This document shows, in pieces, positions 16,897 through 54,690 of a stretch of DNA of 62,788 nucleotides. Numbering within the stretch: position 1 is the first letter of the stretch; every line of letters starts with the position of its first letter. The notes under the pieces were generated by a model. That model did not search any database. It saw only the letters and a program-made list of their open reading frames with translations, and was not told the DNA's origin. The stretch comes from Faecalibacter macacae. Lineage in GTDB: Bacteria > Bacteroidota > Bacteroidia > Flavobacteriales > Weeksellaceae. Location of the stretch: the NCBI RefSeq assembly GCF_003687725.1, contig NZ_RDOJ01000019.1, positions 1-62,788 of the forward strand. The letters are read 5' to 3'. The position numbers and the translations under genes were made by a program.

Positions 16897-16909
16897 GCGG
16901 AGAGTGAGG
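16897..16909. other. Putative left attachment core of the island (copy of tRNA-Ser 3' end)
   Basis: GCGGAGAGTGAGG at 16897-16909 is identical, in the same orientation, to 54678-54690, which is the 3' end of the tRNA-Ser gene. Sequence diverges on both sides, as expected of an att core. An AGCGACC-N4-AGCGACC site (minus strand; 16970-16987) lies just inside, mirrored at 54559-54576. Confidence 0.65.
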
Positions 16910-16969
16910 CTCCGGAACTATATTTTGAAAGTACCATTAATAGCTGAATGAAAACCTTTGGTTTTAAAA

Positions 16970-16987
16970 GGTCGCTATTTGGTCGCT
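16970..16987. promoter_or_regulatory. Arm-type site: paired GGTCGCT repeat near the left att
   Basis: GGTCGCT-ATTT-GGTCGCT. The only other pair seen, GGTCGCT-ATTG-GGTCGCT, is at 54559-54576, upstream of the integrase. Both are inside the island and may bind integrase or excisionase. Confidence 0.5.
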
Positions 16988-17224
16988 TATTTCTAAAAAT
17001 TGATGTAAAATGAACTTCTTGATTGAGTTACAAAGGTATGAAATCTATTGTTTTAATAGTGATTTACTTAGCCGAATTTTGGTAAAGTAAACGTTAAAAA
17101 TTATGATGCAGAGTATTCATTTTGCTTTTGGGCATTATTTATAAACTTATAAAATAACAAAAGGTAAACCAATGTTTGCCTTTTGTATTATTGTATCGTT
17201 TAGACTTTAAAGATTTGATTTTAC

Positions 17225-17783
17225 TTATAAAGCATAAACTATCAAATTATCTACCATTCCTTTATTACCTGCATAGTCTATCGCACTACTATAAAGATAA
17301 TCTTCTGGTTTACTAACAATTCCATCTTTCACGGGATTATAATGAATATAGTTGATTTTTTCTATAATAACACCATGGCTCCAAAGTTCAATAGGTTTAT
17401 TGTCATGTCTCCAAAATTGATATTTCTTAACATTAGAAGATGCTGCACCTGCTTTGGCAAATTGTTCTAAAAGATTTTCCTTTCTACTTTCTGCTGGATT
17501 TTCTGTTATAGCTTTTACAATTTTTTTACTTGTAAATCGTATGAAATCTCCTAAAAGTAATTCTGGTTTTTATTCCTTCAGTACTTCTAAATATCAGGTG
17601 TACATGATTGGTCATAATGCACCATGTTATGATTTTCATTCCTTTTTCATTCTGACAATAGTTAAGGCTTTCAACCAAAATATCTTTGTATTCTTTCCTA
17701 GTAAAGACATCTAACCATTCTACCACAGCAAAACTGACAAAATATAATCCGTTGGGATTATGAAATTTATAATTTCTGCTCAT
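17225..17783 (-). pseudogene. Y1 (REP-associated) transposase, frameshifted
   Basis: The N-terminal part MSRNYKFHNPNGLYFVSFAVVEWLDVFTR...WCIMTNHVHLIFRS shows the HUH metal-binding motif (NHVHLI) of TnpA_REP/RAYT enzymes. After STEGIK the frame shifts in an A-run (about 17560-17566 on +). The remainder is readable in another frame: LLLGDFIRFTSKKIVKAI, YQFWRHDNKPIELW, YIHYNPVKDGIV, and a stop at 17225. These are the expected C-terminal motifs, including the catalytic helix region. One indel therefore inactivates an otherwise complete gene. The A and B repeats lie on each side. Confidence 0.75.
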
Positions 17784-17833
17784 TAGTCTTAGGTTTTTAG
17801 TTGAAGATATTAAAAAATAATAGTTTTATAAAA

Positions 17834-17911
17834 TAACAAACCCTACAAATATTACTTTGTAGGATTGTTTTATTATTACTTGCTACAAGATACAATCGTG
17901 CGGTAGCGGGG
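17834..17911. repeat. Unit A of the REP-like repeat (second copy)
   Basis: CCCTACAA-ATATTACT-TTGTAGG hairpin, ATTATTACTTGCTAC, and a CGTGCGGTAGCGGGG tail, matching 11113-11174. Unit B copies are at 17112-17195 and, truncated, 18030-18085. Confidence 0.55.
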
Positions 17912-18013
17912 GCTAATGAACGTTTAAAATTACTTGAACAACTTGAAGAAGAGGATAAAAATGCAGTTTATCGTATTATAGATACTATGCTGACTAAATC
18001 TAAGTTCAAGTAA
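17912..18013 (+). pseudogene. C-terminal fragment of an XRE-family regulator
   Basis: A 33-codon open stretch reads ANERLKLLEQLEEEDKNAVY followed by RIIDTMLTKSKFK and TAA. Such Leu/Glu-rich tails (LLEKYEQLDEEDR-AL--IID-LL-K) close many Bacteroidota XRE regulators. The HTH domain is absent: unit A of the repeat abuts directly upstream. Confidence 0.45.
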
Positions 18014-18049
18014 TTTTTCAATAAAAATGTAGCTACTTTATAAAATAAC

Positions 18050-18132: not shown

Positions 18133-18534
18133 TTATTTAATACTATCTCTTATCTTAATCTTTAAAACTTTGTTTTGGTCATATTTAGTCTTATCACAAA
18201 AATTTTCATAGCTTATAGAAACGACAGTATCTTTTTTATAAATATACATAATAGCTTCACCTTTCTTTTTTATTACTGTATCTCCTATTGAAATATATTG
18301 TGCGAATGGCTGCCATCCTCTGTCTCCATGAAATTTTTCATTTTCATTTGTTTTAATATTTCTTCCTTGAATTTTTAGAGTACCTAAAGCAAAAGAAGAC
18401 TTTTCTGTATTATAATTTTTATCTATAATGAGGTTACAATGTTCTTTGAGTAATAATTCTTGACTTTTTTCACAGCCATATTTTCCACACGAATAAAATA
18501 CAAATAATGTGATTAATAATAATATTTTTTTCAT
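18133..18534 (-). CDS. Lipoprotein following the Rhs gene (possible immunity/accessory protein)
   Basis: 133 residues. The N-terminus MKKILLLITLFVFYSCGKYG has a lipobox with Cys16. The soluble part is beta-rich (SSFALGTLKIQGRNIKTNENEKF; YISIGDTVIKKKGEAIMYIYKKDTVVSISYENFC). It starts 12 bases after the intact Rhs gene and is the last gene of a four-gene operon. Position alone suggests an immunity or accessory role. No immunity family is recognised. Confidence 0.6.
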   Translation of the reverse strand: MKKILLLITLFVFYSCGKYGCEKSQELLLKEHCNLIIDKNYNTEKSSFALGTLKIQGRNIKTNENEKFHGDRGWQPFAQYISIGDTVIKKKGEAIMYIYKKDTVVSISYENFCDKTKYDQNKVLKIKIRDSIK

Positions 18535-18546
18535 TTTTTTATTTTT

Positions 18547-21500
18547 TTATTTTTTGAAAGGTCTCCATATTATAGAATTAGAAAATTGTTGACTAACTCC
18601 TAACCCTGGTTTCCCTAATCCTAAACTAACACTTTTTGTACCTGTTCTAGTATTATAAGTACCATTATCTGTCATTGATTGTGAATAATTAGTATTAAGT
18701 GGCCCTAATGTAGTATTAGTATTTAAAGCTTTCCCTTGCATACCATCTATAACATCTGTCGTTGTGCCATATTTATCATGAAAGCCAACAGATCCATACA
18801 GACCAACAGAAGGACTTATACCCGAAAATCCAAAACCACCAGAATAATTAAAACCACCAGCAATTTCTCCTGGAGCAAATATTAAAGATATAGAAACATC
18901 ATAATGCCCCACAATACCATTTGCACCAGCGCCAAAATTTAAAGATACAGCATCAGGATTATATGGAGAAAATCTAGAATCATAATTACCACTCATGTAA
19001 GCTCTACGGGCAAATCCTGTCATTGAAGTATCATTATCTATATTTGATATTACAGTTCCTGCCCCTGTTTTAAATTCACTGCTCATAGATGAACCTTGAT
19101 TATCCATAACTGAACCATCAGCGTTTAAGGAATAGTTATAATTACCATTAGCTTCATCATTTGTTGTACTAAATATATTTCCCGCTTCCATATATTCAGA
19201 AAATCCTAAACTTTCAAAATTATCTTTAGTTATATGTTTACTGTATTCCCAATATGACGTACCATTTTTATCTATTCTATTACCCCAACCTTCAGCCTGC
19301 ATCCCATCAGGATCTATAAAGAAAACAGGATTATTAAAAGCGTAGTTGTAAGGAGAATGACGTCTCATTTTTTCTGCCAGCGGGTCGATGTTAAACCAAC
19401 GTCCGATAGCAGGATCGTAGTTTCGTGCGCCGTAGTCGTAAAGATTGATATCTAAGTCTGTTTGCAGTTCCTTCCCGTTGTATTTGTAATTATACGTCGC
19501 AGAACCTGTTGTGATAGGACTATTTTCAATTAAACCAAAATCACCACCTATAGCAGCTTTAGCAACAATTGATGTACGCGCACCATCTATCGGATCTGTT
19601 GGTGTAATAATTACTTGTTGTAAAGGTTGATACCCTGTGTGTTTTAAACCGAATGGGTAATAATGGGATTCATCCAGAATCTTTAATTTATTTTCTGTGT
19701 CATCCCAAGCATAAGATGTTCTTACGTTACCTAAATGATCGTTGTAGTTATACACATAACTGTAAGTTCTACTATTCTGACAAGTATCACACGTTACCAC
19801 ATTTACATATCCTTCGGCTGTTGGGAAGAATTGTAAATTGTTATTCACGTATTGGAAACTTCCTAAGTAATCTGTTGTTGTTACATTCGATCCATCCGTT
19901 ACAATCTTACGAAGTTTAACCCCTGTTGCATCATAATCGTACTTAATCTTCTTTGTGCTATTCCAAATAACTTCTGTAGGTAAATTTAAGTAATTATAAA
20001 CAATATTGGTAATTCCTTTGTTTAAATCTTTGGTTAAATTCCCATTTACATCGTAATCGTAATCTAATCCATTAGTATTGCCATCCGAAAAACCATTGGT
20101 ATTGTTGGATGAATCAGTTACTCGATTTAAACGATTTGAGAGCTCCGTTAATTGATTCTCTTTATTGGCGTATTTATAGCTTAATTGATCAATTAAAATA
20201 GGTTGTGTTTCATTGCTACCATAACGAACTAATGATTGAATGTTACCATTTTTATCATAGGTTAATCCTTCATTATAGTATTTAATTTGAGTTCCTCCAG
20301 ATCCTTTATAGAAAAAAGCATCTTCTAAGCGATTTAGCCCATCATATTTATAATCATAGCTTCTAACTGATTGGTTTGGCGTTTTCCAAAATGTTTGACT
20401 GATATTCCCATTGTATAAAGGTTTAGAAGTTTGAGATCTTGGACCAGGATATTTAATTTTATCATAACTTAATTTAAAACTAAATAATTGTCCTCCTTTG
20501 TTTAAATTATTGGTTTGATCTACATTATTAATATCCGTTAGCCATCCGCGTACGTTGTATTTATAGCTAATGGTTTGGTAAGGATCGTCTTTTAAATTCC
20601 CTACTTTTTTAGTCATTAGCTGCCCAATGGAATTGTATGTATTATCGGCCAGATATTCTTTTCTACCTCCATTGATTTGATGTGTATGCGTTAATACACG
20701 TCCAAATTCGTCGTAAGAAAATTCTTCTATAATTGTAACCTCTTCTGTATTTGTTTTTTGACGATGTTTTGTTATGGTTTTTGTTACTTTACCCGCAAAG
20801 TCTAATTCAGTTGAAGTCTTGGTATAGCCTTCTAAATGATTATAACTAATTGCATATACAGGACGAATTTTGATCGCATCATAAAAAGAGTAATTTATAT
20901 TCCAATTATTAGTTCCTAATACACGAGCGAATGATGCTATCGGTAAACCTTTTAATTTGATGTTATTTCCTTGTACTAATAACTGTCCATCTAAGCTGTT
21001 ATAATCAGGATCTAAATTATCGTAGGTGTCGTAATAATTTACAGTTAAAATTTTATCCAACTCTAATAGTGCGCCCGCATTATTCGTATATAAAAATTTA
21101 GCTTTTGCATTTCCTAAATTGGAACCAGCTGAAGTTACTCTCTCTTCAAATAATATAGTTGCATTATTATAAATACTTTGTAAACTACTTCGTTCTGATT
21201 TTGGATAAGTACCCGAATAAATTACACGCCCGAATTTATCGTATTTAGTAATGATCCAATCATTCATACTATCACGTGTTGCTACAAGACGATCTTGTTT
21301 GTCATAGACCATGTATTCCCATTCTTTCCCGGGAAGTTTTTTCTCGATTAAGCGATTCTTATGGTCATAAACATATTGATAACCTAATTCGTTTAAATGA
21401 GTAGTATAACTACCTGATTGCACCAATAAAGGAGGAAGAACGTAAGTAAGATTTCCGTAAACATCATAAATGTAATAAGTATCGTGTTTGCCTGAAGAAT

Positions 21501-22167
21501 TCCCATCTTTTGTAGGTTCAATATCAATACGTTTTAAAATGACTTTACCTTCTTTGTCTTTAAATTCTTGTATTGGTTGCCCATTTTCGTCGATGGTAAC
21601 AGTTTTGTATAAGGTACCATCTTGATATGTTCCATTTTGATTTAATGATGGTGTTAAATTATTAGATAAAGTAACCTCAAATCTTAAAACATTATCAACA
21701 GTATTATTTGTTTCGTATTTGAATTCTATAGCCTTACCACCATCAACTTTCCACGTTGCACCTGGAGCACCTTGTTTTTCAACACGATTAAGAGGAGAAT
21801 TCTCGTATTGCTTTTGAGTATATAAATTGGACGTTTCAGGGTAATCAGTATAGTTAAAACTTTCTGTATAGCCTAAAGAAGGAGATAAACTACCTGGTAA
21901 AAATTCTTGATCCACGCGGCCAAATCCATCATAGGTTATCTTGGATCCAATGGCAGAAGTAGAATTGTCGTTATTCGCTTTAGTAATGGTCACTTTTTCT
22001 CTTCCTAGACCATCTAAATAGACAATAGATTGTGTTTTGTTTTCGCAATCATCTGTTTGACAAATTGTGCTAAGTACATAATTTTTAGTACGATCTTGTG
22101 CAAAATTTTCGTGTGTACAACCAAAATAAAAAGCTGCACTCAAAATTAGTGTTAATTGATTTTTCAT
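18547..22167 (-). CDS. Rhs/YD-repeat protein with DUF6443-like N-terminus
   Basis: 1206 residues with a signal peptide (about 1-24). An N-terminal module of the DUF6443 type (NYVLSTICQTDD...QSIVYLDGLGREKV) is followed by many YD repeats (YIYDVYGNLTYV; YDKFGRVIYSGTY; YDEFGRVLTH). The Rhs core hallmark [20 protein letters not shown] occurs at about residue 930. After DPDGM a variable C-terminal ~250 residues is glycine-rich, ends WRPFKK and matches no toxin fold I recognise. These proteins form a beta-barrel shell around a C-terminal effector. It begins 9 bases after the 22176-25370 gene, and a lipoprotein follows. Confidence 0.85.
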   Translation of the reverse strand: MKNQLTLILSAAFYFGCTHENFAQDRTKNYVLSTICQTDDCENKTQSIVYLDGLGREKVTITKANNDNSTSAIGSKITYDGFGRVDQEFLPGSLSPSLGYTESFNYTDYPETSNLYTQKQYENSPLNRVEKQGAPGATWKVDGGKAIEFKYETNNTVDNVLRFEVTLSNNLTPSLNQNGTYQDGTLYKTVTIDENGQPIQEFKDKEGKVILKRIDIEPTKDGNSSGKHDTYYIYDVYGNLTYVLPPLLVQSGSYTTHLNELGYQYVYDHKNRLIEKKLPGKEWEYMVYDKQDRLVATRDSMNDWIITKYDKFGRVIYSGTYPKSERSSLQSIYNNATILFEERVTSAGSNLGNAKAKFLYTNNAGALLELDKILTVNYYDTYDNLDPDYNSLDGQLLVQGNNIKLKGLPIASFARVLGTNNWNINYSFYDAIKIRPVYAISYNHLEGYTKTSTELDFAGKVTKTITKHRQKTNTEEVTIIEEFSYDEFGRVLTHTHQINGGRKEYLADNTYNSIGQLMTKKVGNLKDDPYQTISYKYNVRGWLTDINNVDQTNNLNKGGQLFSFKLSYDKIKYPGPRSQTSKPLYNGNISQTFWKTPNQSVRSYDYKYDGLNRLEDAFFYKGSGGTQIKYYNEGLTYDKNGNIQSLVRYGSNETQPILIDQLSYKYANKENQLTELSNRLNRVTDSSNNTNGFSDGNTNGLDYDYDVNGNLTKDLNKGITNIVYNYLNLPTEVIWNSTKKIKYDYDATGVKLRKIVTDGSNVTTTDYLGSFQYVNNNLQFFPTAEGYVNVVTCDTCQNSRTYSYVYNYNDHLGNVRTSYAWDDTENKLKILDESHYYPFGLKHTGYQPLQQVIITPTDPIDGARTSIVAKAAIGGDFGLIENSPITTGSATYNYKYNGKELQTDLDINLYDYGARNYDPAIGRWFNIDPLAEKMRRHSPYNYAFNNPVFFIDPDGMQAEGWGNRIDKNGTSYWEYSKHITKDNFESLGFSEYMEAGNIFSTTNDEANGNYNYSLNADGSVMDNQGSSMSSEFKTGAGTVISNIDNDTSMTGFARRAYMSGNYDSRFSPYNPDAVSLNFGAGANGIVGHYDVSISLIFAPGEIAGGFNYSGGFGFSGISPSVGLYGSVGFHDKYGTTTDVIDGMQGKALNTNTTLGPLNTNYSQSMTDNGTYNTRTGTKSVSLGLGKPGLGVSQQFSNSIIWRPFKK

Positions 22168-22175
22168 TGCATTAG

Positions 22176-25100
22176 TTATTGAGGTTGTGCATAATTGTAT
22201 TCGAATTTCTTTAAAACTTCGCCTTGATCATTTTTGATTTCTTGTAAGCGATTGGCTGTATCATATTTGTAATGTTCAGCAATTCCATTCGGTTGGATAA
22301 TCATAGTTACTCCAACTAATGGATTGTAAATGTAACCTGTAACTAACGCATTAGGGAATGCATTGCGTAAAGCGTCAAAAGAAGTTTTAGTTAATGAATT
22401 ACTATTACTCGCTGTTTTTAAATCATTTTCAAAACTTGAAACTAGATCAAAACTTGCTCCTTCAATTTTAGCAATTGGATATTGACCATTATAACCCCAA
22501 ATGATTGAAACAGGAATACCATTTTCAACAGTATATTGAGTTAGATTTCCTTGAGTATCATAACTGTTGTAGGTAATTTTACGATCATCATTATTCACAT
22601 CGGTACCCATAGCACCTTTTTTTGTATATACATACTGAGGTAAAATCAATTGAGTATTGTTTGTGCCTGGGTAGTAATTGAATTTAGTACGTTGCTCTGA
22701 AAGAACTGTTGTGTTGTTAGAAACTTTTGTTTCAACAGGAGTAGCAATCATATTACGTTCAACCATTTTATCCCAAATAGAATTTGTATTGGATGCTAAA
22801 TCCACAGGGTATTTGTATTCTGTAGTAATTGTTTCTCCTTTGGAGTTGGTTGTAGTTTGTTTGGTTAATTGTAAATGATGTTGGCTGTCATAATTGTAAT
22901 TAATTTCTGTTATGACAGGGGGTGTAGAATCTTCGAAATATTCAGTAACAGTTGATTTTGATAAATATACTTGTTCACTAGATGATTGAGAAATTAATGG
23001 TACAGACCATCCCATAGATTGATCTATATTAAAATTATAATCATATTTACCATTTAATTCATCGTATGTAAAAATATAATTATTCGATATTTCTTTTATT
23101 AGAGTATTATTCTTATAAAATAATTGAGATTTTAATAAATTTTGTCTCCATTGTGGTACATAAGGGTATATAGTTGGAATTAATGGGAGTCCTCTCAGAT
23201 TGAAAATAATTTGAACAGGAGTATTTCTCTTAGGTACAAGTGAAAATTCTAATGGAGGAAAATAAGTATTGATTATTTTATGTTCTAGATTATTTTTTAC
23301 ATCTTTAATAATTTCTGATACTCTAGTATAAATAATGCCATTAAAATTAATTGCATTCTTAGAATATGAATTCAATCTTACATAATACCCTGCATTTTCT
23401 GTAAAATGAACACTTGAAAATAAACCTAAATCAGTATATTCACCTGTTGAAATTCCATTTTTATCATTATAATTATATAATTTTTCTAAAATTCTATCAC
23501 CATTGTTGTCATAATGAGAAATTGATTTAACTCTTAGTCCATTTGCATATTTATTTTTTTTAGCTTCATTTTTAATTTTGTTTTCGATACTAACAACTAT
23601 GTTTTTTCTTTGGAATTGATTTGGAGATAGATTTTCTACCACCAAAGTGTAGTTACCTGATTCTAACCATGTTAAAGAATTGTCATCTATTTCATATAAA
23701 TTAATTGAAAAATTATTTCCTAATATGTATACTTTTGGGCAAGTACTATTTAATGAAATACAGTTATCATCTCCAATAAATTGTTTAATTAACCTTATAT
23801 TTACTAAAGATCGTTCATTCAAAGCAAAATTTTCATGGTAAGATGTAGGAAAATTACTATTTTCATTCATCTCAGGTCCTAATACAGGTTCTGTTATAAT
23901 TTTCGCAATGCTTTCATAATTATAATCTTCTTCATCTTCTAAATGCAACATTAATCCACCAACATTTGTCAATCCTATATTTAAATTCTCGAGTAATTCT
24001 CTTTTAACATCATTTGGTTCTGTATCAATTAGAATTTTACCTTTTGTAGGTAATGTAATAGATTTAAGAATTCCAAATTTCAAATTATCAGAATTAACTT
24101 TTCTATCAGAATTATTATAGATTTTATTTTGAAAAACATACGATGGTATTATAGTTGAATTATTAGCATTGTTGTAAAACCCCCATAAATCTAACTTTAG
24201 AGATAATCTTCCTGGCAAACCGGATGGGTTAAAATAATCAAATGAATAATAATCTTCTATTTTATTATTATCATACTTTATTGAAATTTTATCTAAAAAT
24301 GTACGAATTGTAGTATTATTAGTATGATCGTAAGAAGTGTAATTACTCATATTGAATAAATATTTATAAACTTCTTTACTATTTTGTAAAACTGTTATAT
24401 TTTCAATCTTTTTTAAGCCTGTATGATTATCATTATTTATATAAGAAAAATTAACATGGAGGTTTTCATAATGAATATTTGTAATATATGGTTTATAGAT
24501 AATATTAGTTGAATATAATTTATTACTAGGATATGGATTGTATGGTTCATTTCCTTGAAACGTATGGGTTTCTATAGTTTTATATTCATCTACAAAAGAT
24601 TGATAGACAGTTTTTAAATTATCATAATCAAAAGTTACAATGTTGTTATTATTAATTATTTTAGTTACATACCAACTTGTTGTATAATTACTAGAATTTA
24701 TTTCTCTAGACTCTTCTAAATCTCCAAAATGATATTCAGTTCCGTTAGAATCAACAATTTTTATTGAATTAGGGAGGTCTGGATAAATTTTCAAATCTTG
24801 AAAAGGATACGTAATTATTTCATAATTTTCATCTTTAAACATGAAATAACCACTTTTTCCATTAATGTTAAAGTAAAACTTATCAGCTTGTAAATCATAT
24901 TCACCTATGCCTGCACGGTTATAGATATCAACTTGAATACTAATATCATTATCAGGATGTATAGTAGGATTATTTGGGTTTACTCTAAAAGCTTTATCAG
25001 CCATGTTTGCTGTGCTATATCCAGTTTGAGGATTTAAGTAACCAAAACTAAATTCATCGGGTATGCCCCTTACTTCTCTTGAAATTTTAGGAATATTTAA

Positions 25101-25370
25101 AGACCAATCATGACCAAATTCATTTGAAATATCTCCAACCTTAACACCATAAGAAGAATAATTTAAGTTAAAACTAATATCGTTATTTTTTAATTGAACA
25201 TTAAAAAGAGGTATACTGTATGAAATTCCACCTGTATTTAAATTAATAGGATAATCTATATTTTTTGAAAACTTTTTAAATTCGGGAGTTGTAGGGAAAT
25301 TAATATTTGGTTCTTGCGCAAACAATATATTCATCATACTTAAGAAAAGTATGAAGTAAAGATTTTTCAT
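22176..25370 (-). CDS. Large secreted YD-repeat protein, upstream partner of the Rhs protein
   Basis: 1064 residues with a signal peptide ending near FAQ. The N-terminal part reads PTTPEFKKFSKNIDYPINLNTGGISYSIPLFNVQLKNND, matching the opening of Bacteroidota YD/Rhs-type surface proteins (SpvB-like prelude with a tandem beta layout). The C-terminal ~150 residues contain YD units (YDTQGNLTQY; YKYDTANRLQEI) and end at KKFEYNYAQPQ, without the Rhs core or a tip domain. It lies 3 bases after the T9SS gene and 9 bases before the Rhs gene, so the pair may assemble together like a TcB/TcC shell. That assembly is an inference. Confidence 0.75.
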   Translation of the reverse strand: MKNLYFILFLSMMNILFAQEPNINFPTTPEFKKFSKNIDYPINLNTGGISYSIPLFNVQLKNNDISFNLNYSSYGVKVGDISNEFGHDWSLNIPKISREVRGIPDEFSFGYLNPQTGYSTANMADKAFRVNPNNPTIHPDNDISIQVDIYNRAGIGEYDLQADKFYFNINGKSGYFMFKDENYEIITYPFQDLKIYPDLPNSIKIVDSNGTEYHFGDLEESREINSSNYTTSWYVTKIINNNNIVTFDYDNLKTVYQSFVDEYKTIETHTFQGNEPYNPYPSNKLYSTNIIYKPYITNIHYENLHVNFSYINNDNHTGLKKIENITVLQNSKEVYKYLFNMSNYTSYDHTNNTTIRTFLDKISIKYDNNKIEDYYSFDYFNPSGLPGRLSLKLDLWGFYNNANNSTIIPSYVFQNKIYNNSDRKVNSDNLKFGILKSITLPTKGKILIDTEPNDVKRELLENLNIGLTNVGGLMLHLEDEEDYNYESIAKIITEPVLGPEMNENSNFPTSYHENFALNERSLVNIRLIKQFIGDDNCISLNSTCPKVYILGNNFSINLYEIDDNSLTWLESGNYTLVVENLSPNQFQRKNIVVSIENKIKNEAKKNKYANGLRVKSISHYDNNGDRILEKLYNYNDKNGISTGEYTDLGLFSSVHFTENAGYYVRLNSYSKNAINFNGIIYTRVSEIIKDVKNNLEHKIINTYFPPLEFSLVPKRNTPVQIIFNLRGLPLIPTIYPYVPQWRQNLLKSQLFYKNNTLIKEISNNYIFTYDELNGKYDYNFNIDQSMGWSVPLISQSSSEQVYLSKSTVTEYFEDSTPPVITEINYNYDSQHHLQLTKQTTTNSKGETITTEYKYPVDLASNTNSIWDKMVERNMIATPVETKVSNNTTVLSEQRTKFNYYPGTNNTQLILPQYVYTKKGAMGTDVNNDDRKITYNSYDTQGNLTQYTVENGIPVSIIWGYNGQYPIAKIEGASFDLVSSFENDLKTASNSNSLTKTSFDALRNAFPNALVTGYIYNPLVGVTMIIQPNGIAEHYKYDTANRLQEIKNDQGEVLKKFEYNYAQPQ

Positions 25371-25373
25371 ATA

Positions 25374-27231: not shown

Positions 27232-27244
27232 AATTATACATTTT

Positions 27245-45031: not shown

Positions 45032-45036
45032 GATAA

Positions 45037-45093
45037 AATTATTTGCACCAAATTAAACAATTATTTGCCAATAAAAAAATAATTATTTGCCAA
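45037..45093 (-). promoter_or_regulatory. Three direct repeats at a 22-bp period upstream of fic
   Basis: AATTATTTGC occurs at 45037, 45059 and 45081, the latter two continuing to CAA. The exact 22-base spacing means two helical turns. Fic proteins with a C-terminal wHTH commonly autoregulate, so this is a likely operator. Confidence 0.6.
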
Positions 45094-45138
45094 ACAACAA
45101 CAACAAATGCTCTACTATCAAGAGTTTATATAAAAAAA

Positions 45139-45162
45139 AATCGTGCAATTTTTTGCACGATT
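45139..45162 (-). terminator. Terminator between hsdS and fic
   Basis: AATCGTGCAA and TTGCACGATT form the stem, with a run of A (45130-45138) on the + strand, i.e. U-run for the minus-strand transcript. It separates hsdMS from fic-hsdR. Confidence 0.72.
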
Positions 45163-45204
45163 AAAATAAAACATTTGCGTATTTACGTAATTTTATTTGC
45201 TTTT

Positions 45205-46308: not shown

Positions 46309-47765
46309 TATAATAAATCTGTTAATATTTTAATCAAATCATTTCTCTCCTTATCCAATTGCTGAATAGAAGCTATAATATCCGCAGGTTTTGCATACAC
46401 CTTTTGCTCATAGATTACTTCTTTGTATTTGTTAATACTTAAGTCGTACGCATTCTTTGCAATTTCTTCTTTTGGTACACAAAAGCTTTGGTCTGTTCTT
46501 GCTCTGTCCACTTCGTTCTCTCTTGTATGGAATCTTGTAATAATATCTGGGATATCATTTTCCTTAACAGGTGCACGTTTATCATCTAAACTATACCCAT
46601 CTGCTTTCATATCATAAAACCATACATTTTCTGTACCACCTGCATTGGTTTTTGTAAACACTAAGATGGCAGTAGAAACTCCTGCATACGGTTTGAACAC
46701 ACCACTTGGCATAGAAATAACTGCTTCTAACGCTTGGTTTTCTACAATTTCTTTTCTAATCTTTTTATGTGCAGTAGAAGAACCAAATAATACCCCATCA
46801 GGAATAATTACGGCACATCGACCTCCAACTTTTAGTCCTTTTAGTATTAAACCAAGAAAAAGTAATTCTGTTTTCTTAGAATCAACTAAAGCAATTACTT
46901 TTTCGTCTACAGCATCTTTATCTAAACTTCCTTTAAAAGGAGGATTAGCTAAGATTAAAGATACTTTTTCTTCAAAATCTGCATTAGCTTGTGATAAAGA
47001 ATCTACATCTTTTAGTTGAGGATTTTCAATCCCATGTAGAATTAAGTTCATTGCCCCAATTCTAATCATGGTTGGGTCAAACTCCATTCCTGTAAACATT
47101 TCATTTAAGTAATGTTTTTGTACTTCAGGTTTTAGCAAATCCTCTTTATAATTTTCTTGTAGATATTCTGCAGCACCAACTAAAAATCCACAACTTCCCG
47201 ATGATGGGTCGCAAATAGTATCTTCAGGAGTTGGCTTCATCATTTCTACCATCATTTTGATGATATGTCTTGGTGTACGGAATTGTCCATTACTTCCTGC
47301 AGAAGCAATCTTACCTAACATATACTCGTATACATCACCTTTGGTATCTTTGTCATCCATGTCAATTTTATCTAACATCTCTACCACTTGTGCTAATAAA
47401 CGAGCAGTAGGAATCATAAAGTTGGCATTCTTCATAAACTTAGAAAAAGCAGTACTTTTCCCTCCAAAGTTTTTCATAAAGTCGAAGACTCCATTCTCTT
47501 TTTGGAAAAGCTTATACATTTCTTCAGGAGAAACATTCTTAAAGTTACTCCATCTTAAATCCTGGTTTTCTTCTGTGTATATGTAGTTTGATGTATTACC
47601 TGTAATAATAGCTTGTTGCTCGGCTCTATTCTGTAACTCATCTAATTGTTTGATAAAAAGTAAAAAAGTGATTTGCTCTATAACAGATAAAGGATTTGAT
47701 AATCCTCCACTGTGAAAAGCTAACCAAACTTGGTCTATTTTAGACTGTAATTCTTGTGTGAACAT
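46308..47765 (-). CDS. hsdM: Type I restriction methylase subunit (N6-adenine)
   Basis: 485 residues. HsdM N-terminal helical domain (FHSGGLSNPLSVIEQITFLLFIKQLDEL), AdoMet motif I DPSSGSCGFLV (186-196) and catalytic motif IV NPPF (274-277), then IIPDGVLFGSS. It methylates adenine at the target chosen by HsdS. It is in one unit with HIRAN and WYL genes upstream (61-base gaps). Confidence 0.93.
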   Translation of the reverse strand: MFTQELQSKIDQVWLAFHSGGLSNPLSVIEQITFLLFIKQLDELQNRAEQQAIITGNTSNYIYTEENQDLRWSNFKNVSPEEMYKLFQKENGVFDFMKNFGGKSTAFSKFMKNANFMIPTARLLAQVVEMLDKIDMDDKDTKGDVYEYMLGKIASAGSNGQFRTPRHIIKMMVEMMKPTPEDTICDPSSGSCGFLVGAAEYLQENYKEDLLKPEVQKHYLNEMFTGMEFDPTMIRIGAMNLILHGIENPQLKDVDSLSQANADFEEKVSLILANPPFKGSLDKDAVDEKVIALVDSKKTELLFLGLILKGLKVGGRCAVIIPDGVLFGSSTAHKKIRKEIVENQALEAVISMPSGVFKPYAGVSTAILVFTKTNAGGTENVWFYDMKADGYSLDDKRAPVKENDIPDIITRFHTRENEVDRARTDQSFCVPKEEIAKNAYDLSINKYKEVIYEQKVYAKPADIIASIQQLDKERNDLIKILTDLL

Positions 47766-47826: not shown

Positions 47827-48165
47827 TTAGATATTTTCTGGATTATTATGTTTTAAATGCACAACCACACGAATTTGTTGTTCTGGATGCTCGGTCGGAT
47901 CTATTTGTTGTATCGCTGCGTCAAAGATTTTATTATAGTTCATCGTAAGCAATTTATAAAAGACTCTATTTTCGGTACGTGGTACAAAACCTAATTTGTA
48001 ATCTTTGTAATATATAGCTACGGCTCTGGCATCGAATTTATTTTCGGTTTCTAATTCTAACCTAAGTTCTGTTCCAACTTTTAGTTTTTTGAAACATAAT
48101 GCAGCTTCGTAAAATGTAAGTCCTGCAATATGAAAGTTTGCTAAATGTTCTCTTTTTGTTTTCAT
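47827..48165 (-). CDS. Stand-alone HIRAN-domain protein
   Basis: 112 residues, nearly all one HIRAN domain: FHIAGLTFYEAALCFKKLKVGTELRLELETENKFDARAVAIYY, KLGFVPRTEN. HIRAN domains bind 3' DNA ends or stalled structures in helicases such as HLTF. It lies between the WYL and hsdM genes in the R-M operon and is not fused to a helicase here, so it may act as a separate DNA-end sensor. Confidence 0.82.
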   Translation of the reverse strand: MKTKREHLANFHIAGLTFYEAALCFKKLKVGTELRLELETENKFDARAVAIYYKDYKLGFVPRTENRVFYKLLTMNYNKIFDAAIQQIDPTEHPEQQIRVVVHLKHNNPENI

Positions 48166-48226
48166 GATTTGAATTTTTTAAAAGATTATTTTGCAAACTA
48201 GTTTTGATCTATGCAGCTTAATTGCA

Positions 48227-49213
48227 TTAGTATAAATCTTGTAATTTTTCAATTCTTTCTTTTAATCTCTGAACTAATTCTATTGGTTCTATTACTTTCA
48301 TATTTTCGCCATACGAAAGAATTAAAGATTCTAATTCGTAATTTAACTTAACTTTAATTTGTAATCTATTCTCTGCTATTTTTTGAGAACCATGAATCGG
48401 TTTTGATTTGATGTAGGGGATGATATGATCTGACAGCTCTATCCTAACAGAAACAAGTTTATTCTCTATATTATTTGTAACCCCAATGATATCCTCAAAA
48501 TACTCATCAAAATCCACCTCTGTTGGAATGTAAGTTTCCTTATTAATTTCGATCCCTTGAATTCGATCTAATGCCAAATTTTGAAGGTATTGATCCTTAT
48601 GGTTCCACCCAAATAAAAACCAACGTTTATTGAATTGTTTTAAGTGATAAGGTGAAATACAGAATTCTTGTTCATTTTCTGTTTTAAATGATTGATAAAC
48701 TATTTTGATTGTTTGGTTGTTTTTGATGAAATTATATAAGGGTGTTAGATGTTCTAATCCTATCAAAAATTCGCTTTCCTCGAATGAAATTAATTTTTGA
48801 TTGCCTTTGTTATCTTTCACTTCATTTAATTTAGCTTCAATATTTTCTATTGCATCAATCCCAGGAATCCCTTTCATACGAGAAAGTAATTCTAACGTAT
48901 TTTCTAAGGCTAGTTGTTCTTCTTGGTTTAATGGTTTATTTTGAATTGTAAAATTAGGATCTTCATAACGGTAAAATTTTTTACGGCCGTCTTTTATTCC
49001 AATGATAGGTGCTTCATATCCTGCATCGCTTTCCATAAACTCCATATCATATAAAATTTGACGACGAGAAACAGATGTATCTTCTCCATAAAGTTCTTTT
49101 AAAACAATAGAACATTCATTGATTAAATCATCGATATAATAGTTACGAAATTGATTGCTAAAACATTTGTCTAATGTTTTGTAACGAATTAATGCATTTT
49201 TATTGACTGCCAT
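48227..49213 (-). CDS. WYL-domain regulator of the R-M operon
   Basis: 328 residues. The N-terminal HTH part includes DDLINECSIVLKELYGEDTSVSRRQILYDMEFM. The WYL domain (about 160-230) has IKIVYQSFKTENEQEFCISPYHLKQFNKRWFLFGWN, with W-F-L in place of W-Y-L. The C-terminal WCX-like part ends YGENMKVIEPIELVQRLKERIEKL. It is the first gene of the WYL-HIRAN-hsdM-hsdS run on the minus strand and is a distant relative of the 32916 regulator. Confidence 0.85.
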   Translation of the reverse strand: MAVNKNALIRYKTLDKCFSNQFRNYYIDDLINECSIVLKELYGEDTSVSRRQILYDMEFMESDAGYEAPIIGIKDGRKKFYRYEDPNFTIQNKPLNQEEQLALENTLELLSRMKGIPGIDAIENIEAKLNEVKDNKGNQKLISFEESEFLIGLEHLTPLYNFIKNNQTIKIVYQSFKTENEQEFCISPYHLKQFNKRWFLFGWNHKDQYLQNLALDRIQGIEINKETYIPTEVDFDEYFEDIIGVTNNIENKLVSVRIELSDHIIPYIKSKPIHGSQKIAENRLQIKVKLNYELESLILSYGENMKVIEPIELVQRLKERIEKLQDLY

Positions 49214-49404
49214 AAACGAATACGAATAGTTGTAAATTTAATAAAATAAAAAATGCTTCGAACGGCAAAATAATTAAAAAAGTGTGTAAAATGTTTTATT
49301 AGGTTTTGGATTATATGTTTTGTGTGTAATGGTATTATGATTTAGTTTACTTGATTAGATTGAAGAATTGATGTGATGAGGTCCTGATATGAGTTCGATG
49401 ACAT

Positions 49405-49580
49405 TACTTTTTTCTTGATAAAAAAGTAATCAAAAAATCAAGGCTACGATTTTCGACGGTCAATTTGCATCTTGTTTCATTAAAATGATTAAATGATTCG
49501 CTATCGCTCACTAATCATTTTTACATTTCATTTCGATGAATTGACACTCGTCTGCTAATCGTTATGCCGGATTTACTATT
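49405..49580 (+). repeat. Dispersed hairpin repeat, copy C
   Basis: ACTTTTTT-CTTG-ATAAAAAAGT, ATCAAGGCTACGATTTTCGA, CGGTCAAT arm, AAAATGATTA/TAATCATTTT (stem differs from copies A, B and D on both sides), ATTGACACTCGTC, GTTATGCCG. It is bracketed by GATGTGATGAG-CCTGA repeats (about 49368 and 49598). It occupies most of the 49214-49634 gap. Confidence 0.75.
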
Positions 49581-49634: not shown

Positions 49635-50240
49635 TCAGGATCGTTTGTCTTTACGGTCTGCAGGAACTGCTAATACATTCATCATTTGGCGAAGGCGAGA
49701 GCGTACACGTTCGGTGTAATACTTTTCGATTTCGGAAGCTGATAGGTTAGTGGTGATGTGGGTTTTGATGTTGAGGTTCATGAATAGATCGTAACGGCTA
49801 AGAATGATTTCTGCCATTACATTGCATTCGTTGCCGAAATATTTGATGTTGTTTTCTGTTCCTAGATCATCAAAGCAAATGTTTTTCATTGGGAAATCGA
49901 AAGGAATTCCTTTGCTGTACTTGTTAATAGTTTGATATCCGTCTCGGATAAATTCAAATGAAATATCTCTGCATGTTGTGTAATAGAATTTTTGTTCTTT
50001 GACCATAATCGTTTGCATTAATCGAAACCAGGTTGTTTTCCCAATACCGATAGGTCCAGTTAATAAAATCCCTTTGCTGAGATCTATGTTTAATTCTTTG
50101 CACTTTTCTTCATCGTTAAGAAAATATGCAGCTAAACGAACGATGTAAGGAAAATCATCTTTGTGAATGGTATAATTTGGATGAATTTGTTTACGTGCAT
50201 GTTGTTCTAAGTGAAATATAAGTTTTTGGTAATTGATCAT
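49635..50240 (-). CDS. DnaC/IstB-type helicase loader
   Basis: 201 residues with Walker A GILLTGPIGIGKTTW (about 54-68), Walker B ICFDDLGTE, sensor-like THITTNLSASEIEKYYTERV and arginine-rich RVRSRLRQMM. The layout is that of DnaC-like ATPases that load replicative helicases in phages, plasmids and islands. It lies 15 bases after the 50256-51119 gene, so they are likely co-transcribed. Confidence 0.8.
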   Translation of the reverse strand: MINYQKLIFHLEQHARKQIHPNYTIHKDDFPYIVRLAAYFLNDEEKCKELNIDLSKGILLTGPIGIGKTTWFRLMQTIMVKEQKFYYTTCRDISFEFIRDGYQTINKYSKGIPFDFPMKNICFDDLGTENNIKYFGNECNVMAEIILSRYDLFMNLNIKTHITTNLSASEIEKYYTERVRSRLRQMMNVLAVPADRKDKRS

Positions 50241-50255: not shown

Positions 50256-51119
50256 TTATAATGGTTCGTCGTATTTTTTGTTTGGTGATGTATCTAATGT
50301 TTTTTGTAATCCGTTGTTTTGATTTTTAGAGAATACGGTTGCGTTAATCATCCAATTATTTGCAGCAGCCTTCCAGTTTTTCATTTTGGTTTTTCCTCCA
50401 ACTAACCATCCATTGGATTCGAAATAGTAAAAAAACTTTTCAGCTTCGATTGATGTATTGTCTTTTTCTTGAAAGAATTCTTTGACTTGGTCTAATGTTG
50501 GATTTGTACCTTTTTCTTTTTTGACGGAACTTTTTTCTTTTTGGAGCATTTCAGATTTAACAGCTGATTGATTTTTAGCTATGTTATTTTTAAAATTTTT
50601 ATCAAAAATTAAAAAAGGAATTTGTGCTTGCTTACATAAGCTATTTATGTTTTCCTGTTTATTGTTTATATGTTTATATATAGGCTCTATGGGTGTGTTT
50701 ATAGGTGTGTCTATAACCTTGTTTATTGGTTTGTTCTTTTTTGGACTGGTTTGTTCTAAAGGTGTATCAATAACTGTGTTTATTGCTTTATTCTTTTTTG
50801 GTTGGGTTGTATTGTTGTTTTTTAATTCTAATGTTAGGTCTTTGAAATAGATTTGACTTCCTATGTATGGATTATAGGATGGAATGTAAATGATGTATTG
50901 ATTATTGTGTAATATTTTCATGGAGCGATGATAAGTGCTTTTGGATGTGATTTTGCTTAGTCGCATAACTTCATCTCGAATGATGTGTATTGGATTTTCA
51001 AACCTTTGTTTGTTCCAACATTGAAATAGTGCTAAATACAAAGCGATTTGACATGGTGCTATTTCGGGATCTATTTGTATTTTATTGTAGAAGTTATTAA
51101 GGTGTTTGATGTAGTTCAT
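50256..51119 (-). CDS. Replisome-organiser/initiator-like protein
   Basis: 287 residues. An N-terminal winged-helix region is IAPCQIALYLALFQCWNKQRFENPIHIIRDEVMRLS followed by KSTYHRSMKILHNNQYI. A low-complexity Lys/Thr/Pro-rich linker includes tandem NTPI/KVIDTP units (about 120-165). The C-terminal ~50 residues (FFYYFESNGWLVGGKTKMKNWKAAANNWM) match the C-terminal motif of phage/plasmid replication proteins that pair with DnaC loaders. It probably recruits the loader to an origin on this element. Confidence 0.72.
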   Translation of the reverse strand: MNYIKHLNNFYNKIQIDPEIAPCQIALYLALFQCWNKQRFENPIHIIRDEVMRLSKITSKSTYHRSMKILHNNQYIIYIPSYNPYIGSQIYFKDLTLELKNNNTTQPKKNKAINTVIDTPLEQTSPKKNKPINKVIDTPINTPIEPIYKHINNKQENINSLCKQAQIPFLIFDKNFKNNIAKNQSAVKSEMLQKEKSSVKKEKGTNPTLDQVKEFFQEKDNTSIEAEKFFYYFESNGWLVGGKTKMKNWKAAANNWMINATVFSKNQNNGLQKTLDTSPNKKYDEPL

Positions 51120-51177
51120 ATTTTTAGATTTTAGATTCTTCGATAGGTTCAGAATGACTAGTTTATATTTATTCTAC

Positions 51178-51350
51178 TTTCATTTTTGTCTTGACACAAA
51201 AACGAAACAAAAAAGTCAAGGCTACGATTTTCGACGGTCAATCATCATTTCGTTTCTCTAAAATGTTTAAATCACTCCTTTCAGTCGGTAAACATTTTTG
51301 CGATTCACTCAATGGATTGACACTCGTCTGCTAATCGTTATGCCATTCTT
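51178..51350 (+). repeat. Dispersed hairpin repeat, copy D
   Basis: The 5' stem is a different pair: TTTTTGT-CTTG-ACACAAAAA, with TTTC/GAAA outside. Then GTCAAGGCTACGATTTTCGA, CGGTCAAT arm, AAAATGTTTA/TAAACATTTT, ATTGACACTCGTC, GTTATGCC. Confidence 0.75.
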
Positions 51351-51524: not shown

Positions 51525-51695
51525 TATTACTTTTTTCTTGATAAAAAAGTAATCAAAAAATCAAGGCTTCGATTTTCGACGGTCAATTTGCATCTTGTTA
51601 CATTAAAATGATTAAATGATTCGCTATCGCTCACTAATCATTTTTACATTTCACTTTGATGAATTGACACTCGTCTGCTAATCGTTATGCCATTT
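51525..51695 (+). repeat. Dispersed hairpin repeat, copy E
   Basis: ATTACTTTTTT-CTTG-ATAAAAAAGTAAT, TCGATTTTCGACGG, AAAATGATTA/TAATCATTTT, ATTGACACTCGTC, GTTATGCC. Copies D and E and a TTCGATAGGCTCAGG repeat at about 51420 fill the 51120-51820 gap; no gene is seen there. Confidence 0.75.
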
Positions 51696-51820: not shown

Positions 51821-52093
51821 TTACTGTAGAATTTTATCTACTTTATTTTGTTCGAGTATATGTAATATTTCGTCTGTGTCGTAATAAATGTTTCTTCCAA
51901 AATTTGAATAGGTGATGAGGTTTTGTTGTCTCATCTTTTGGAGTTTTGAATTTGAAACACCTAAAAGTTTTGAAACTTCTTTTGATGTAATCCATTTGCA
52001 GGATTGTTTAATTTCTAATTCTTTTTTTAGAAGGCTAATTACAGTTTCTGAAATTAGTTGAATGTCTTCTGGGTTAATTCGTTTTGTTTTCAT
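51821..52093 (-). CDS. Excisionase/HTH_17-type DNA-binding protein
   Basis: 90 residues. KWITSKEVSKLLGVSNSKLQKMRQQNLITYSNFGRNIYYDTDEI is the MerR-like HTH_17 module of Bacteroidota excisionases and small island regulators. The upstream region (52148-52170) has tandem CCATACTACG/ACATACTATGG repeats that may be its operator. It sits beside RteC and the integrase, as expected in mobile islands. Confidence 0.8.
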   Translation of the reverse strand: MKTKRINPEDIQLISETVISLLKKELEIKQSCKWITSKEVSKLLGVSNSKLQKMRQQNLITYSNFGRNIYYDTDEILHILEQNKVDKILQ

Positions 52094-52215: not shown

Positions 52216-52253
52216 AAATAATCCGTAGCTGAATAACAACTACGGATTATTTT
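52216..52253 (-). terminator. Terminator of the rteC gene
   Basis: AAAATAATCCGTAG and CTACGGATTATTTT form a 14-bp stem that overlaps the end of the rteC frame. Confidence 0.8.
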
Positions 52254-53070
52254 ATGTATCTAATTTGTTTGAGAGGACTTCTTTTAATTGATCTAATAAC
52301 TTGAATTTATTTATCTTTCTCATTTTAATATCTTGAATGATGTTGTTATGATTATTGAGTTCAATATCAAAATTTGTTTCAAAAAATAGAACTAATTCTG
52401 TTAATTCAACTTTACCTTGATTTATAAATCCGATAAGGTATAATGAATATATAAGCTCCATTAATAATACTTTTGAAGCTGTCCATTTGAGTTGATATGT
52501 TGTTGGTGGTCTGCAATTTGATAATTCGTGAATTTTATTGTCTGAATAAATAATAAGTTTCTTAATGGCTTTGTGCTTGCCGACAACATTTGAAACAGTA
52601 TTAAATACGAATGATTCACTGATGAAATTAGTGAAATTTTTACGCCTCCATTTGTAATTTTTCCTGAGAAATAATTTTTTATCGATATTACCTGGTTCTG
52701 GTTTAAACAGTTTTAATACGTCTAAATTTGCATCGTTAATATATTTTAGTTTCTCTTTAAATTTGTTATAAAATTCTATCTCTTGCTCTTTAGTTAAACA
52801 TTTTTGATATTTTTCATTCTCTAAATTATATATCGTGGTGTAATAATAATGTACATTGAAATATTTGGGATAAAAGAATTTGAAGTATTCAATTTCACTT
52901 TGTTTTGAATGAAATTTATTGATTAATAATTGTTCTTCTAAAAGATTTAAGTACTTAATAGAAATGTTAATTGCTTGATAAGCTTTTTTGTTAATATCAA
53001 TATCAGTCATCTCTATTTTAGTAATTTCTTCTTCAAATTGGTAATACATTTCAAGTAATGGCGATTGCAT
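52252..53070 (-). CDS. rteC: RteC-family regulator
   Basis: 272 residues. The C-terminal part LKWTASKVLLMELIYSLYLIGFINQGKVELTELV, then FFETNFDIELNNHNNIIQDIKMRK and FLLDQLKEVL-type ending, is the RteC signature. In CTnDOT, RteC activates excision and transfer in response to tetracycline signalling through RteAB. No rteA or rteB is visible. It lies 64 bases downstream of the integrase gene on the same strand. Confidence 0.82.
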   Translation of the reverse strand: MQSPLLEMYYQFEEEITKIEMTDIDINKKAYQAINISIKYLNLLEEQLLINKFHSKQSEIEYFKFFYPKYFNVHYYYTTIYNLENEKYQKCLTKEQEIEFYNKFKEKLKYINDANLDVLKLFKPEPGNIDKKLFLRKNYKWRRKNFTNFISESFVFNTVSNVVGKHKAIKKLIIYSDNKIHELSNCRPPTTYQLKWTASKVLLMELIYSLYLIGFINQGKVELTELVLFFETNFDIELNNHNNIIQDIKMRKINKFKLLDQLKEVLSNKLDT

Positions 53071-53134
53071 GAGATATGGATTTAAGTAGTTAATTTAGAA
53101 TAAATTACAAAAAATAATTAATTAAACAATAAAT

Positions 53135-54385
53135 CTATATTGCATTTTTATTTATAATCGATTTATTTTCAATTACTTGTTTTAAGTTTTGCATATCATT
53201 GCTAATTTTTTGTTCTGTTATTCTTGCATAATGTTGCGTAGTTTTAATATTGGTATGTCCTAACATTTTAGAAACAGATTCGATAGGTACTCCGTTGGAT
53301 AAAGTAACGGTAGTAGCAAACGTATGTCTGGCGCAATGAAAGGTTAGATCTTTATTAATTTTCGTGATTGCAGTTATTTCTTTTAAATACTCGTTCATTT
53401 TTTGGTTCGAGTAAATAGGTAATAATTTTCCAGTAGCACATATTGGATTGTCCTTGTATTTTTCTAATATAGCAAGTGGTATTTCTAATAATGGAATTTT
53501 GGTTGGAGTTGAAGTTTTCTGTCTGTAGGTATGAATCCATAATTGTCCATCGATACCTTTTACAATATTGTTTTTTGTAAGATTTACAATGTCTATATAG
53601 GCTAAACCAGTAAAACATGAAAAAATGAAAATGTCTTTTACAAGTGTTAATCTATCTGTTGTATATTCTTTGTTGTATATGGATTGAATCTCTTCTGTTG
53701 ATAAGAATATTCTTTCAATTTTGTCTAACTTAGATTTGTAGTTTGTAAATGGATCTCTTTGAATCCAATCGTTTGCTATACATAAATTGATTATTTTCTT
53801 GAAGTTTTTAAGATATTTAATTGTTGTGTTATTGCTGCAATTACGTTCTGTTCTTAGGTAGAAATCATAATCCATGATAAACGCATGGTTAATTTCGTCC
53901 AGAGAAATATCTTCCTTTTTGTATTGATGCTTGATGAAGTTTTGTGTGTGCCTTAGTGAGGTTTCGTATCTTTCAAGTGTTCCTGGAGAATATTCTTTTG
54001 GAACTAAGGCTTTCATTTGTTTGTTATGATTTTGGAATATTGGAATAAGTGTTCGTTTATTCTTATTTGTTTTTCCTTGTATTTCTTCTTTTAATGTGTC
54101 AATAGTTAGGGTTTCGTTCTTGAAATTGTATTCTAAGAATATTGTATTAATCTTTGATTTTGTGATTTCAACTTGTGCATTTATTGTACTGGCTGTTTTG
54201 TTGTTGCCTTTAATTTTGGAATTTTTAGCATCCCAAGTTTTAGGATCAATGTATTGTTTTGTACTGAATTCCCATCTTTTTCCGTTTACTCGTACACAAA
54301 AATAAATAGGTTGTTGTCCTAGTTTATTGGCTTTGGCTTGTCTTGGGTAGACATGGATTTTAAAATTGTTCTTCATTTGATTCAA
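53135..54385 (-). CDS. int: Tyrosine integrase (Bacteroidota island type)
   Basis: 416 residues. Arm-binding N-terminal domain (HVYPRQAKANKLGQQPIYFCVRVNGKRWEF), SAM-like core-binding domain (LVPKEYSPGTLERYETSLRHTQNFI), and catalytic domain with R in FSCFTGLAYIDI, HCARHTFAT (HxxR) and HYARI (nucleophilic Tyr in TTQHYARI). It recombines attP with the tRNA-Ser gene, whose 3' end lies only 293 bases from the start codon. The 54386-54678 gap holds the arm-type GGTCGCT pair (54559-54576) and a terminator. Confidence 0.92.
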   Translation of the reverse strand: MNQMKNNFKIHVYPRQAKANKLGQQPIYFCVRVNGKRWEFSTKQYIDPKTWDAKNSKIKGNNKTASTINAQVEITKSKINTIFLEYNFKNETLTIDTLKEEIQGKTNKNKRTLIPIFQNHNKQMKALVPKEYSPGTLERYETSLRHTQNFIKHQYKKEDISLDEINHAFIMDYDFYLRTERNCSNNTTIKYLKNFKKIINLCIANDWIQRDPFTNYKSKLDKIERIFLSTEEIQSIYNKEYTTDRLTLVKDIFIFSCFTGLAYIDIVNLTKNNIVKGIDGQLWIHTYRQKTSTPTKIPLLEIPLAILEKYKDNPICATGKLLPIYSNQKMNEYLKEITAITKINKDLTFHCARHTFATTVTLSNGVPIESVSKMLGHTNIKTTQHYARITEQKISNDMQNLKQVIENKSIINKNAI

Positions 54386-54558
54386 TTTTTAATGGTTAGT
54401 AAAAAATTAACTGGTTATTTGTTTTGAATCAAGATGTTCATTTATCGAACTTGTTCGTGGTTAGGTTATGAGTACAGCTATAGTGATAGTTGTCCGTAAT
54501 CCTATTGTACGATTGAGATAGGGGAGATTTTGACGACCTTTTTTGATTTTATTTTTTA

Positions 54559-54576
54559 GGTCGCTATTGGGTCGCT
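54559..54576. promoter_or_regulatory. Arm-type site: paired GGTCGCT repeat near the right att
   Basis: GGTCGCT-ATTG-GGTCGCT, the counterpart of 16970-16987, lying between the integrase and the tRNA-Ser att core. Confidence 0.5.
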
Positions 54577-54621
54577 CTTGAAATGTGTTTAGATGTGTAG
54601 AATCTAATTTCAAGGCATAAA

Positions 54622-54655
54622 AAAATCCCTTATTTCATATGAAATAAGGGATTTT
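54622..54655 (-). terminator. Terminator downstream of tRNA-Ser
   Basis: AAAATCCCTTATTTC and GAAATAAGGGATTTT form a 15-bp stem with an ATAT loop. Confidence 0.82.
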
Positions 54656-54677
54656 ACTGTTACTTATTAAATAAGTT

Positions 54678-54690
54678 GCGGAGAGTGAGG
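54678..54690. other. Right attachment core of the island, inside the tRNA-Ser 3' end
   Basis: GCGGAGAGTGAGG, identical to 16897-16909. Confidence 0.65.

Follow-up and report, generated by a model that had tools for sequence, protein, structure and literature searches.

The window, as we refer to the whole stretch of DNA analysed here, is the entire contig C11 (NZ_RDOJ01000019.1; 62,788 nt) of Faecalibacter macacae and contains a 37.8-kb segment, at positions 16897-54690, that has the appearance of a genomic island inserted at a tRNA-Ser(UGA) gene (Table 1). The 13-bp core GCGGAGAGTGAGG is present in two copies on the same strand, at 16897-16909 and 54678-54690, and does not occur on the opposite strand of the window. 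The second copy constitutes the 3′ end of an intact tRNA-Ser(UGA) gene on the minus strand (54678/54679-54763, detected with ARAGORN and Rfam), and the gene encoding a tyrosine integrase starts 292 nt inside this tRNA-side core. A preliminary description of this DNA had already proposed a duplicated core with its second copy at the 3′ end of an intact tRNA-Ser gene beside an integrase, which the repeat search and both tRNA searches bore out. It had also placed a terminator on the same side of each core and facing the same way, and terminator-like inverted repeats in the same orientation can indeed be read at about 16866-16893 and 54626-54651. Just inside both ends lies a further element of that description, a pair of GGTCGCT heptamers separated by four nucleotides (16970/16981 and 54559/54570); the heptamer occurs six times in the window, both strands included.

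The comparison that carries the interpretation is with G001, one of the 14 genomes of the genus included here. Window positions 14647-16909 align to 11980-14240 of the G001 locus L043 and positions 54678-56540 to 14228-16051, and these two matches overlap by precisely the 13-bp core. A model of the joined flanks with one core (14647-16909 plus 54691-56119, 3692 bases) matches L043 11980-15672 unbroken, with 90.7% identity end to end. Immediately 3′ of the tRNA-Ser gene, G001 has a terminator like that at 16866-16893 and, beyond it, a gene homologous to 16401-16736 (identical at 77 of 112 aligned positions). This is the arrangement that had been predicted for a genome lacking the island, and it identifies the left terminator of the window as the displaced original tRNA terminator. 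Judged from this alignment, the empty site shows that the insertion was precise at the base level. Hence, a direct repeat of the tRNA 3′ end at both borders, an integrase gene beside the tRNA and an empty site in a relative, the characteristics of a tRNA-targeting tyrosine-integrase island, are all found at this locus. It is very probable that 16897-54690 is an integrated mobile genomic island, the tyrosine integrase of which recombines the 13-bp core of the island with the identical tRNA-Ser(UGA) 3′ end. Integration would leave the tRNA intact, set an island-borne terminator behind it and shift the original one 37.8 kb away.

The preliminary description had cautioned that the core is short and that chance might explain it. 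For the core taken by itself this caution stands, because 7 of 300 first-order Markov sequences built from the window shared a stretch of at least 13 bases with the tRNA (one strand compared), which makes the repeat alone suggestive at best. It does not hold at the level of the genus, where 13 of the 14 genomes together contain 54 matches to the core pattern, against none for the reversed control pattern, the sole genome without it having variant tRNA ends. A chance repeat around an ordinary variable region is refuted by the exact empty site in G001, where the flanks are joined in one alignment, and we assign it practically no probability.

The 14 genomes contain 41 full copies of tRNA-Ser(UGA) plus one truncated at a contig end, which makes three for each genome, and by flank comparison the three insertion sites, or docks, are orthologous in G000 (the genome of the window), G001 and G008. 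The 54 cores comprise 38 tRNA-Ser 3′ ends and 16 displaced copies. Thirteen displaced copies lie on the same strand and contig as a tRNA-Ser(UGA) gene, on its 3′ side and within 40 kb; the others are one in G006 on a contig without tRNA-Ser (C4) and two in G008 near 3.02 Mb. At the site orthologous to that of the window, two cores enclose a 2-kb unit in G008, and G006 retains a 77-bp piece of the right end of the island (95% identical), with no integrase in the 6.1 kb between this piece and the contig end, indicating that this dock was used more than once. Among the five relatives compared at the DNA level (G001, G008, G006, G004 and G010), the stretch beyond the terminator (14647-16909) is found in G001 alone; on this comparison the flank, too, is subject to change. 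A second core was noticed in G003, 168 bp from a tRNA-Ser core (L164, 441 and 609), with a similar terminator beside each.

Relatives of the integrase were searched in 320 genomes of the family and found in 206 at E-values up to 1e-60, of which 29 loci were returned (L057-L085). An intact tRNA-Ser(UGA) gene lies just upstream of the integrase in 26 of these loci, and a bare tRNA-Ser-like 3′ core in the remaining three (L062, L064 and L076, the core of L064 being a variant), as a tandem insertion would leave it. A 68% identical integrase of G001, outside these 29 loci, is likewise located at a tRNA-Ser(UGA) gene (1707796). These neighbourhoods show the tRNA-Ser(UGA) 3′ end as the target of the nearest integrases. 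The integrase of the window reads TGLAYID at the usual position of the first catalytic arginine.

The integrases of CTnDOT and lambda use core- and arm-type sites, and by analogy we infer that the repeat pairs are arm-type integrase sites. We compared 32 loci, including the window and its near copy L057; the core was recognised by pattern in 29, the others being L060 and L061 with a variant core and a locus at a transfer-messenger RNA (tmRNA) gene. A direct pair of the form [CT]G[AT]C[CT] with an 11-12 bp period was present 102-108 nt inside the core in all 29 loci, compared with 2 of 638 control bins within integrase genes; the repeat pair of the preliminary description recurs in this form at every locus with a recognised core.

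The island in G001 at the tRNA-Ser(UGA) gene at 154201 carries the same five backbone genes, with identities to the window of 99.8% (integrase), 97.4% (RteC), 100% (HTH_17), 97.6% (rep) and 92.5% (DnaC), together with mostly different cargo that includes another type I restriction locus (24-27% identity to the genes of the window) and a UmuCD-like pair. A backbone that is 92-100% identical at another dock indicates that one backbone entered different docks in sister species.

Several points weigh against this interpretation or limit it. The pair pattern was defined after the loci had been inspected, and two genera account for 23 of the 29 returned loci, so that the count of 29 overstates their independence; the corresponding pair at the distal end, 61-62 nt inside the core, occurs at only 7 of the 16 displaced cores. 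A reciprocal empty site is not demonstrable because the downstream flanks of the G000 C12 site and of the 154-kb site of G001 do not align past the terminator. The cargo of the two sister islands is not wholly different, since window positions 27059-29360 have 87-95% matches in the G001 island. Target choice is also less uniform further out. A 65% identical integrase of G001 is located at the tmRNA gene (L095, 5645-6039 and 6353-7576), and 20 hand-picked integrases of lower identity (46-53%) lie, according to ARAGORN, near tRNA-Ser(UGA) in 5 cases, tRNA-Asp in 11, tRNA-Val and tRNA-Phe in one each and near none in 2. The tRNA-Asp and tmRNA neighbours indicate that the wider group is not tied to a single target, and, to judge from its relatedness, the tmRNA-site integrase is a target switch within the group. 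This integrase is accompanied by relatives of all four other backbone genes.

Table 1 Features of the island and core-bracketed units in relatives. Positions refer to the window unless a genome is named.
Feature	Position	Strand	Basis or remark
Original tRNA terminator, displaced by the island	16866-16893	-	Same element directly 3′ of tRNA in G001
Distal 13-bp core copy (attL)	16897-16909	+	Repeat search, G001 alignment
Left repeat pair GGTCGCT-N4-GGTCGCT, putative arm-type sites, 61 nt inside core	16970-16987	+	Sequence
Small gene after Rhs gene, probable immunity gene by position	18133-18534	-	No Pfam family above cut-off
Rhs trio: sorting-domain protein, Rhs repeat protein, DUF6443/Rhs-core toxin gene	18547-26912	-	Pfam; same trio in G008
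AAA_12/MTES_1575 nuclease/GreA protein, probably truncated defence gene	29706-31412	-	Pfam, defence model
WYL protein, small protein, two GmrSD-type proteins, AAA ATPase; possible defence operon	32874-39160	+	Pfam, defence models
TIR protein near ThsB model	39662-40393	-	Pfam, defence model
Type I restriction-modification locus (HsdR, Fic, HsdS, HsdM)	40520-47765	-	Pfam
HIRAN protein and WYL/WCX regulator	47827-49213	-	Pfam
DnaC-like helicase loader	49635-50240	-	Domain/homology matches
Probable replication protein (rep)	50256-51119	-	Position and C-terminal domain common to viral-contig proteins
HTH_17 protein, likely excisionase	51821-52093	-	Domain matches
RteC-family protein	52252-53070	-	Pfam
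Tyrosine integrase (Arm-DNA-bind_5, SAM_5, Phage_integrase)	53135-54385	-	Pfam
Right repeat pair GGTCGCT-N4-GGTCGCT, putative arm-type sites	54559-54576	+	Sequence, locus comparison
Island-borne terminator, now 3′ of tRNA	54626-54651	-	Sequence; same right end at tRNA-Ser 154201 in G001
Core copy within tRNA 3′ end (attR)	54678-54690	+	Repeat search, G001 alignment
tRNA-Ser(UGA), 3′ end is integration site, attR side	54678-54763	-	ARAGORN, Rfam
Tip unit, G000	contig C9		2.1 kb
Tip unit, G001	191851-193899		2.0 kb
Tip unit, G008	208870-210826		2.0 kb
Full Rhs trio between cores, G008	226232-235226
Tip unit, G008	235226-237166		1.9 kb, tip split over two reading frames
Tip unit, G008	3017672-3021105		3.4 kb, two tips and one small gene

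How the island would move can be outlined from its genes. The HTH_17 protein would assist excision, and the rep and DnaC gene products would replicate the excised circle. The replication genes of the preliminary description correspond to the DnaC-like helicase loader and to rep, a probable replication protein judged by its position and by a C-terminal domain also present in viral-contig proteins. A plasmid origin of rep was considered and rejected, there being one match with 32% identity. Entry into new cells would take place via the conjugation of another element or in a phage capsid, because the island has revealed no genes for its own transfer or capsid: a Pfam scan of 24 of its 30 open reading frames (ORFs) of at least 90 amino acids detected no relaxase, conjugation or capsid gene. 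Neither the relaxase nor the type IV secretion genes that define an integrative and conjugative element (ICE) were detected in these 24 ORFs. The PF03432 relaxase had no match in the genome of the window, with the control found in one of the 14 genomes and other relaxase families and the origin of transfer (oriT) not searched.

For the transfer step alone, a phage-satellite-like island moved by helper phages has to be considered. A phage satellite would combine an int/xis/rep module with packaging or capsid-interference genes. Integrase, HTH_17, rep and DnaC genes are present here; 18 viral contigs encode relatives of the C-terminal part of rep, relatives of the integrase occur in 89 phage records (best 42% identical) and on one viral contig, and the genome has no PF03432 relaxase. 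However, RteC has been described in conjugative elements (PMC6491836), and the 24 scanned ORFs include no packaging or capsid gene, the only hint being that the HTH_17 protein weakly matches a terminase-small-subunit family. Elements of this type are generally smaller than 37.8 kb. We consider helper-phage transfer unlikely. The remaining alternative, which is compatible with site-specific integration as the origin, is a composite and decayed island that entered at the tRNA but is now a patchwork built by several insertions, with an Rhs trio unit on the left and an integrase unit on the right, and immobile as a whole. In G008, two cores 9 kb apart enclose the Rhs trio alone, without an integrase ORF, the 154-kb island of G001 has a second rep/DnaC pair, two 166-bp repeats with 98% identity flank the rep/DnaC genes of the window, and the 29706-31412 protein matches just the C-terminal part of a longer defence model. 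On the other hand, the integrase and HTH_17 reading frames are open and 99.8-100% identical to the G001 copies, both repeat pairs are present, and the core search of both strands of the window found no third core inside the island. A decayed patchwork is a real possibility, although we lean towards the intact mobile island described above.

The cargo of this island (an Rhs toxin, type I restriction, TIR and GmrSD proteins and others) would aid the host in competition and against phages. Along its length the TIR protein fits the ThsB model; the nine further island proteins compared with defence models included no match to ThsA, for which no search was made elsewhere, and the neighbouring ORF at 39235-39561 had no family match. 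The run at 32626-39160 (a WYL protein, a small acidic protein, two GmrSD-type proteins, one with DUF7834, and an IetA-like AAA ATPase) is a possible defence system, as suggested by its gene content.

The island belongs to a familiar class of mobile DNA; more unusual is what neighbouring cores enclose in G000, G001 and G008. Here, a small gene and an orphan Rhs tip lie between one core and the next, and all six tips start at a common point, PFGLK. The unit in G000 follows the second tRNA-Ser(UGA) gene, on contig C9, and its left end is 92-96% identical to that of the island. Three inter-core stretches lack a tip (G001 1681471-1683705 and 1683705-1684549, G008 1760308-1768334). The leader, from the terminator to the tip start, has 10 matches in the genus, in 3 of the 14 genomes, 9 of which lie within 75 bases of a core, and the only trace of the core-terminator-leader sequence in 17 other Rhs loci was one partial match of 31 bases. 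Where the right neighbours of two units begin differently (CTCC vs GATTCG), the homology of the units runs to the final base of the core and no further, as observed for C9 against G001 191851 and G008 3017672 and for G008 208870 and 235226 against 3017672, which singles out the core as the joint between units. Two cores of G008 (L171, 2685 and 6118) enclose a pair of Rhs tips away from any tRNA-Ser gene; a rearrangement may have brought them there.

The tip units may have been moved by an integrase acting in trans, or they may be old remains beside successive island insertions, and the homology breaks fit both. The use of the same joint by other Rhs tip arrays in the genus was rejected: all 15 loci contain internal repeats and none the tRNA-Ser core, one such array (G009) lying beside tRNA-Gly and tRNA-Leu genes. 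Other recombination can therefore build such arrays too. We tentatively raise, as the less likely outcome, that the core doubles as a joint for Rhs-tip exchange, with core-bracketed units of tip and partner gene, each with its own terminator and leader, being moved at the three docks by the integrases of the islands in trans, so that the docks would serve as a cassette platform for contact-dependent toxins. If site-specific recombination does move these tips, it would be a new route for bacteria to change weapons. Among the matches listed, in mostly open-access literature, no title or abstract dealt with Rhs tips bracketed by attachment cores.

Elements at tRNA-Ser genes are already in print for Flavobacteriales. 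ICEEaIII of Elizabethkingia anophelis is inserted beside a tRNA-Ser gene and, compared by description, differs in being conjugative (PMC10508104), whereas no relaxase or conjugation gene was found here. According to PMC6491836, the Riemerella element ICERanRCAD0133-1 shares 13-bp direct repeats and RteC with this island but has another insertion site and conjugation genes. Islands encoding contact-dependent inhibition (CDI) or Rhs systems at tRNA 3′ ends, as described in PMC4927057, likewise combine a tRNA-inserted island and a polymorphic toxin with displaced orphan toxin-tip modules downstream; here, a copy of the attachment core and of the terminator lies between one displaced tip and the next in close relatives. 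The rAID clusters of Bacteroidales, in which a tyrosine recombinase accompanies an array of co-oriented orphan immunity genes with a common intergenic motif (PMC12247911), resemble the units in having a tyrosine recombinase nearby and orphan modules in a row with a sequence common to them. The units differ in holding toxin tips together with small genes, their common sequence is the tRNA-Ser attachment site, and their ORFs showed no recombinase.

CTnDOT and NBU elements use Bacteroidota tyrosine integrases with an arm-binding domain and core- and arm-type sites. The integrase described here resembles them in its arm-binding domain and proposed arm sites, its targets being different, and the arm function would be the same by analogy. 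For this integrase group, a tRNA-Ser 3′ core followed about 105 nt inside by a [CT]G[AT]C[CT] pair is a usable rule, with which islands of this type and their remains could be delimited in draft assemblies. With three docks in each genome, and one backbone found at different docks of sister species, the genus offers a natural system in which to study island traffic. What began as a guess from raw sequence is now an island with borders placed to the base and a matching empty site; the tip units, and likewise the constant geometry of the repeat pairs, merit specialist attention.

Some minor observations concern the surroundings of these features. Just within the left end, 17227-17790 resembles, on reading the sequence, a frame-broken REP-type transposase gene, identified by no scan. 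Outside the island, 11093-14646 is an insert of 3.5 kb that G001 lacks at this position; it carries a small gene besides an Rhs remnant, and the Rhs piece seems to continue into a longer Rhs gene. A core-bracketed unit was rejected for this insert, as the best core-like sequences in 10800-17000 besides 16897 have 4 mismatches in 13. The gene at 16401-16736, next to the left border of the island, shares 68-88% identity with its counterpart in G001, with the DNA to its left 99-100% and to its right 94% identical; it is perhaps a fast-changing, immunity-like gene, its similarity to the small genes of the tip units being weak. A dispersed repeat of ~165 bp, also present in G001 and including the 98% identical pair on either side of rep/DnaC, occurs at 14211-14371, 28081-28303, 49403-49568, 51172-51350, 51526-51691 and 62269-62443.

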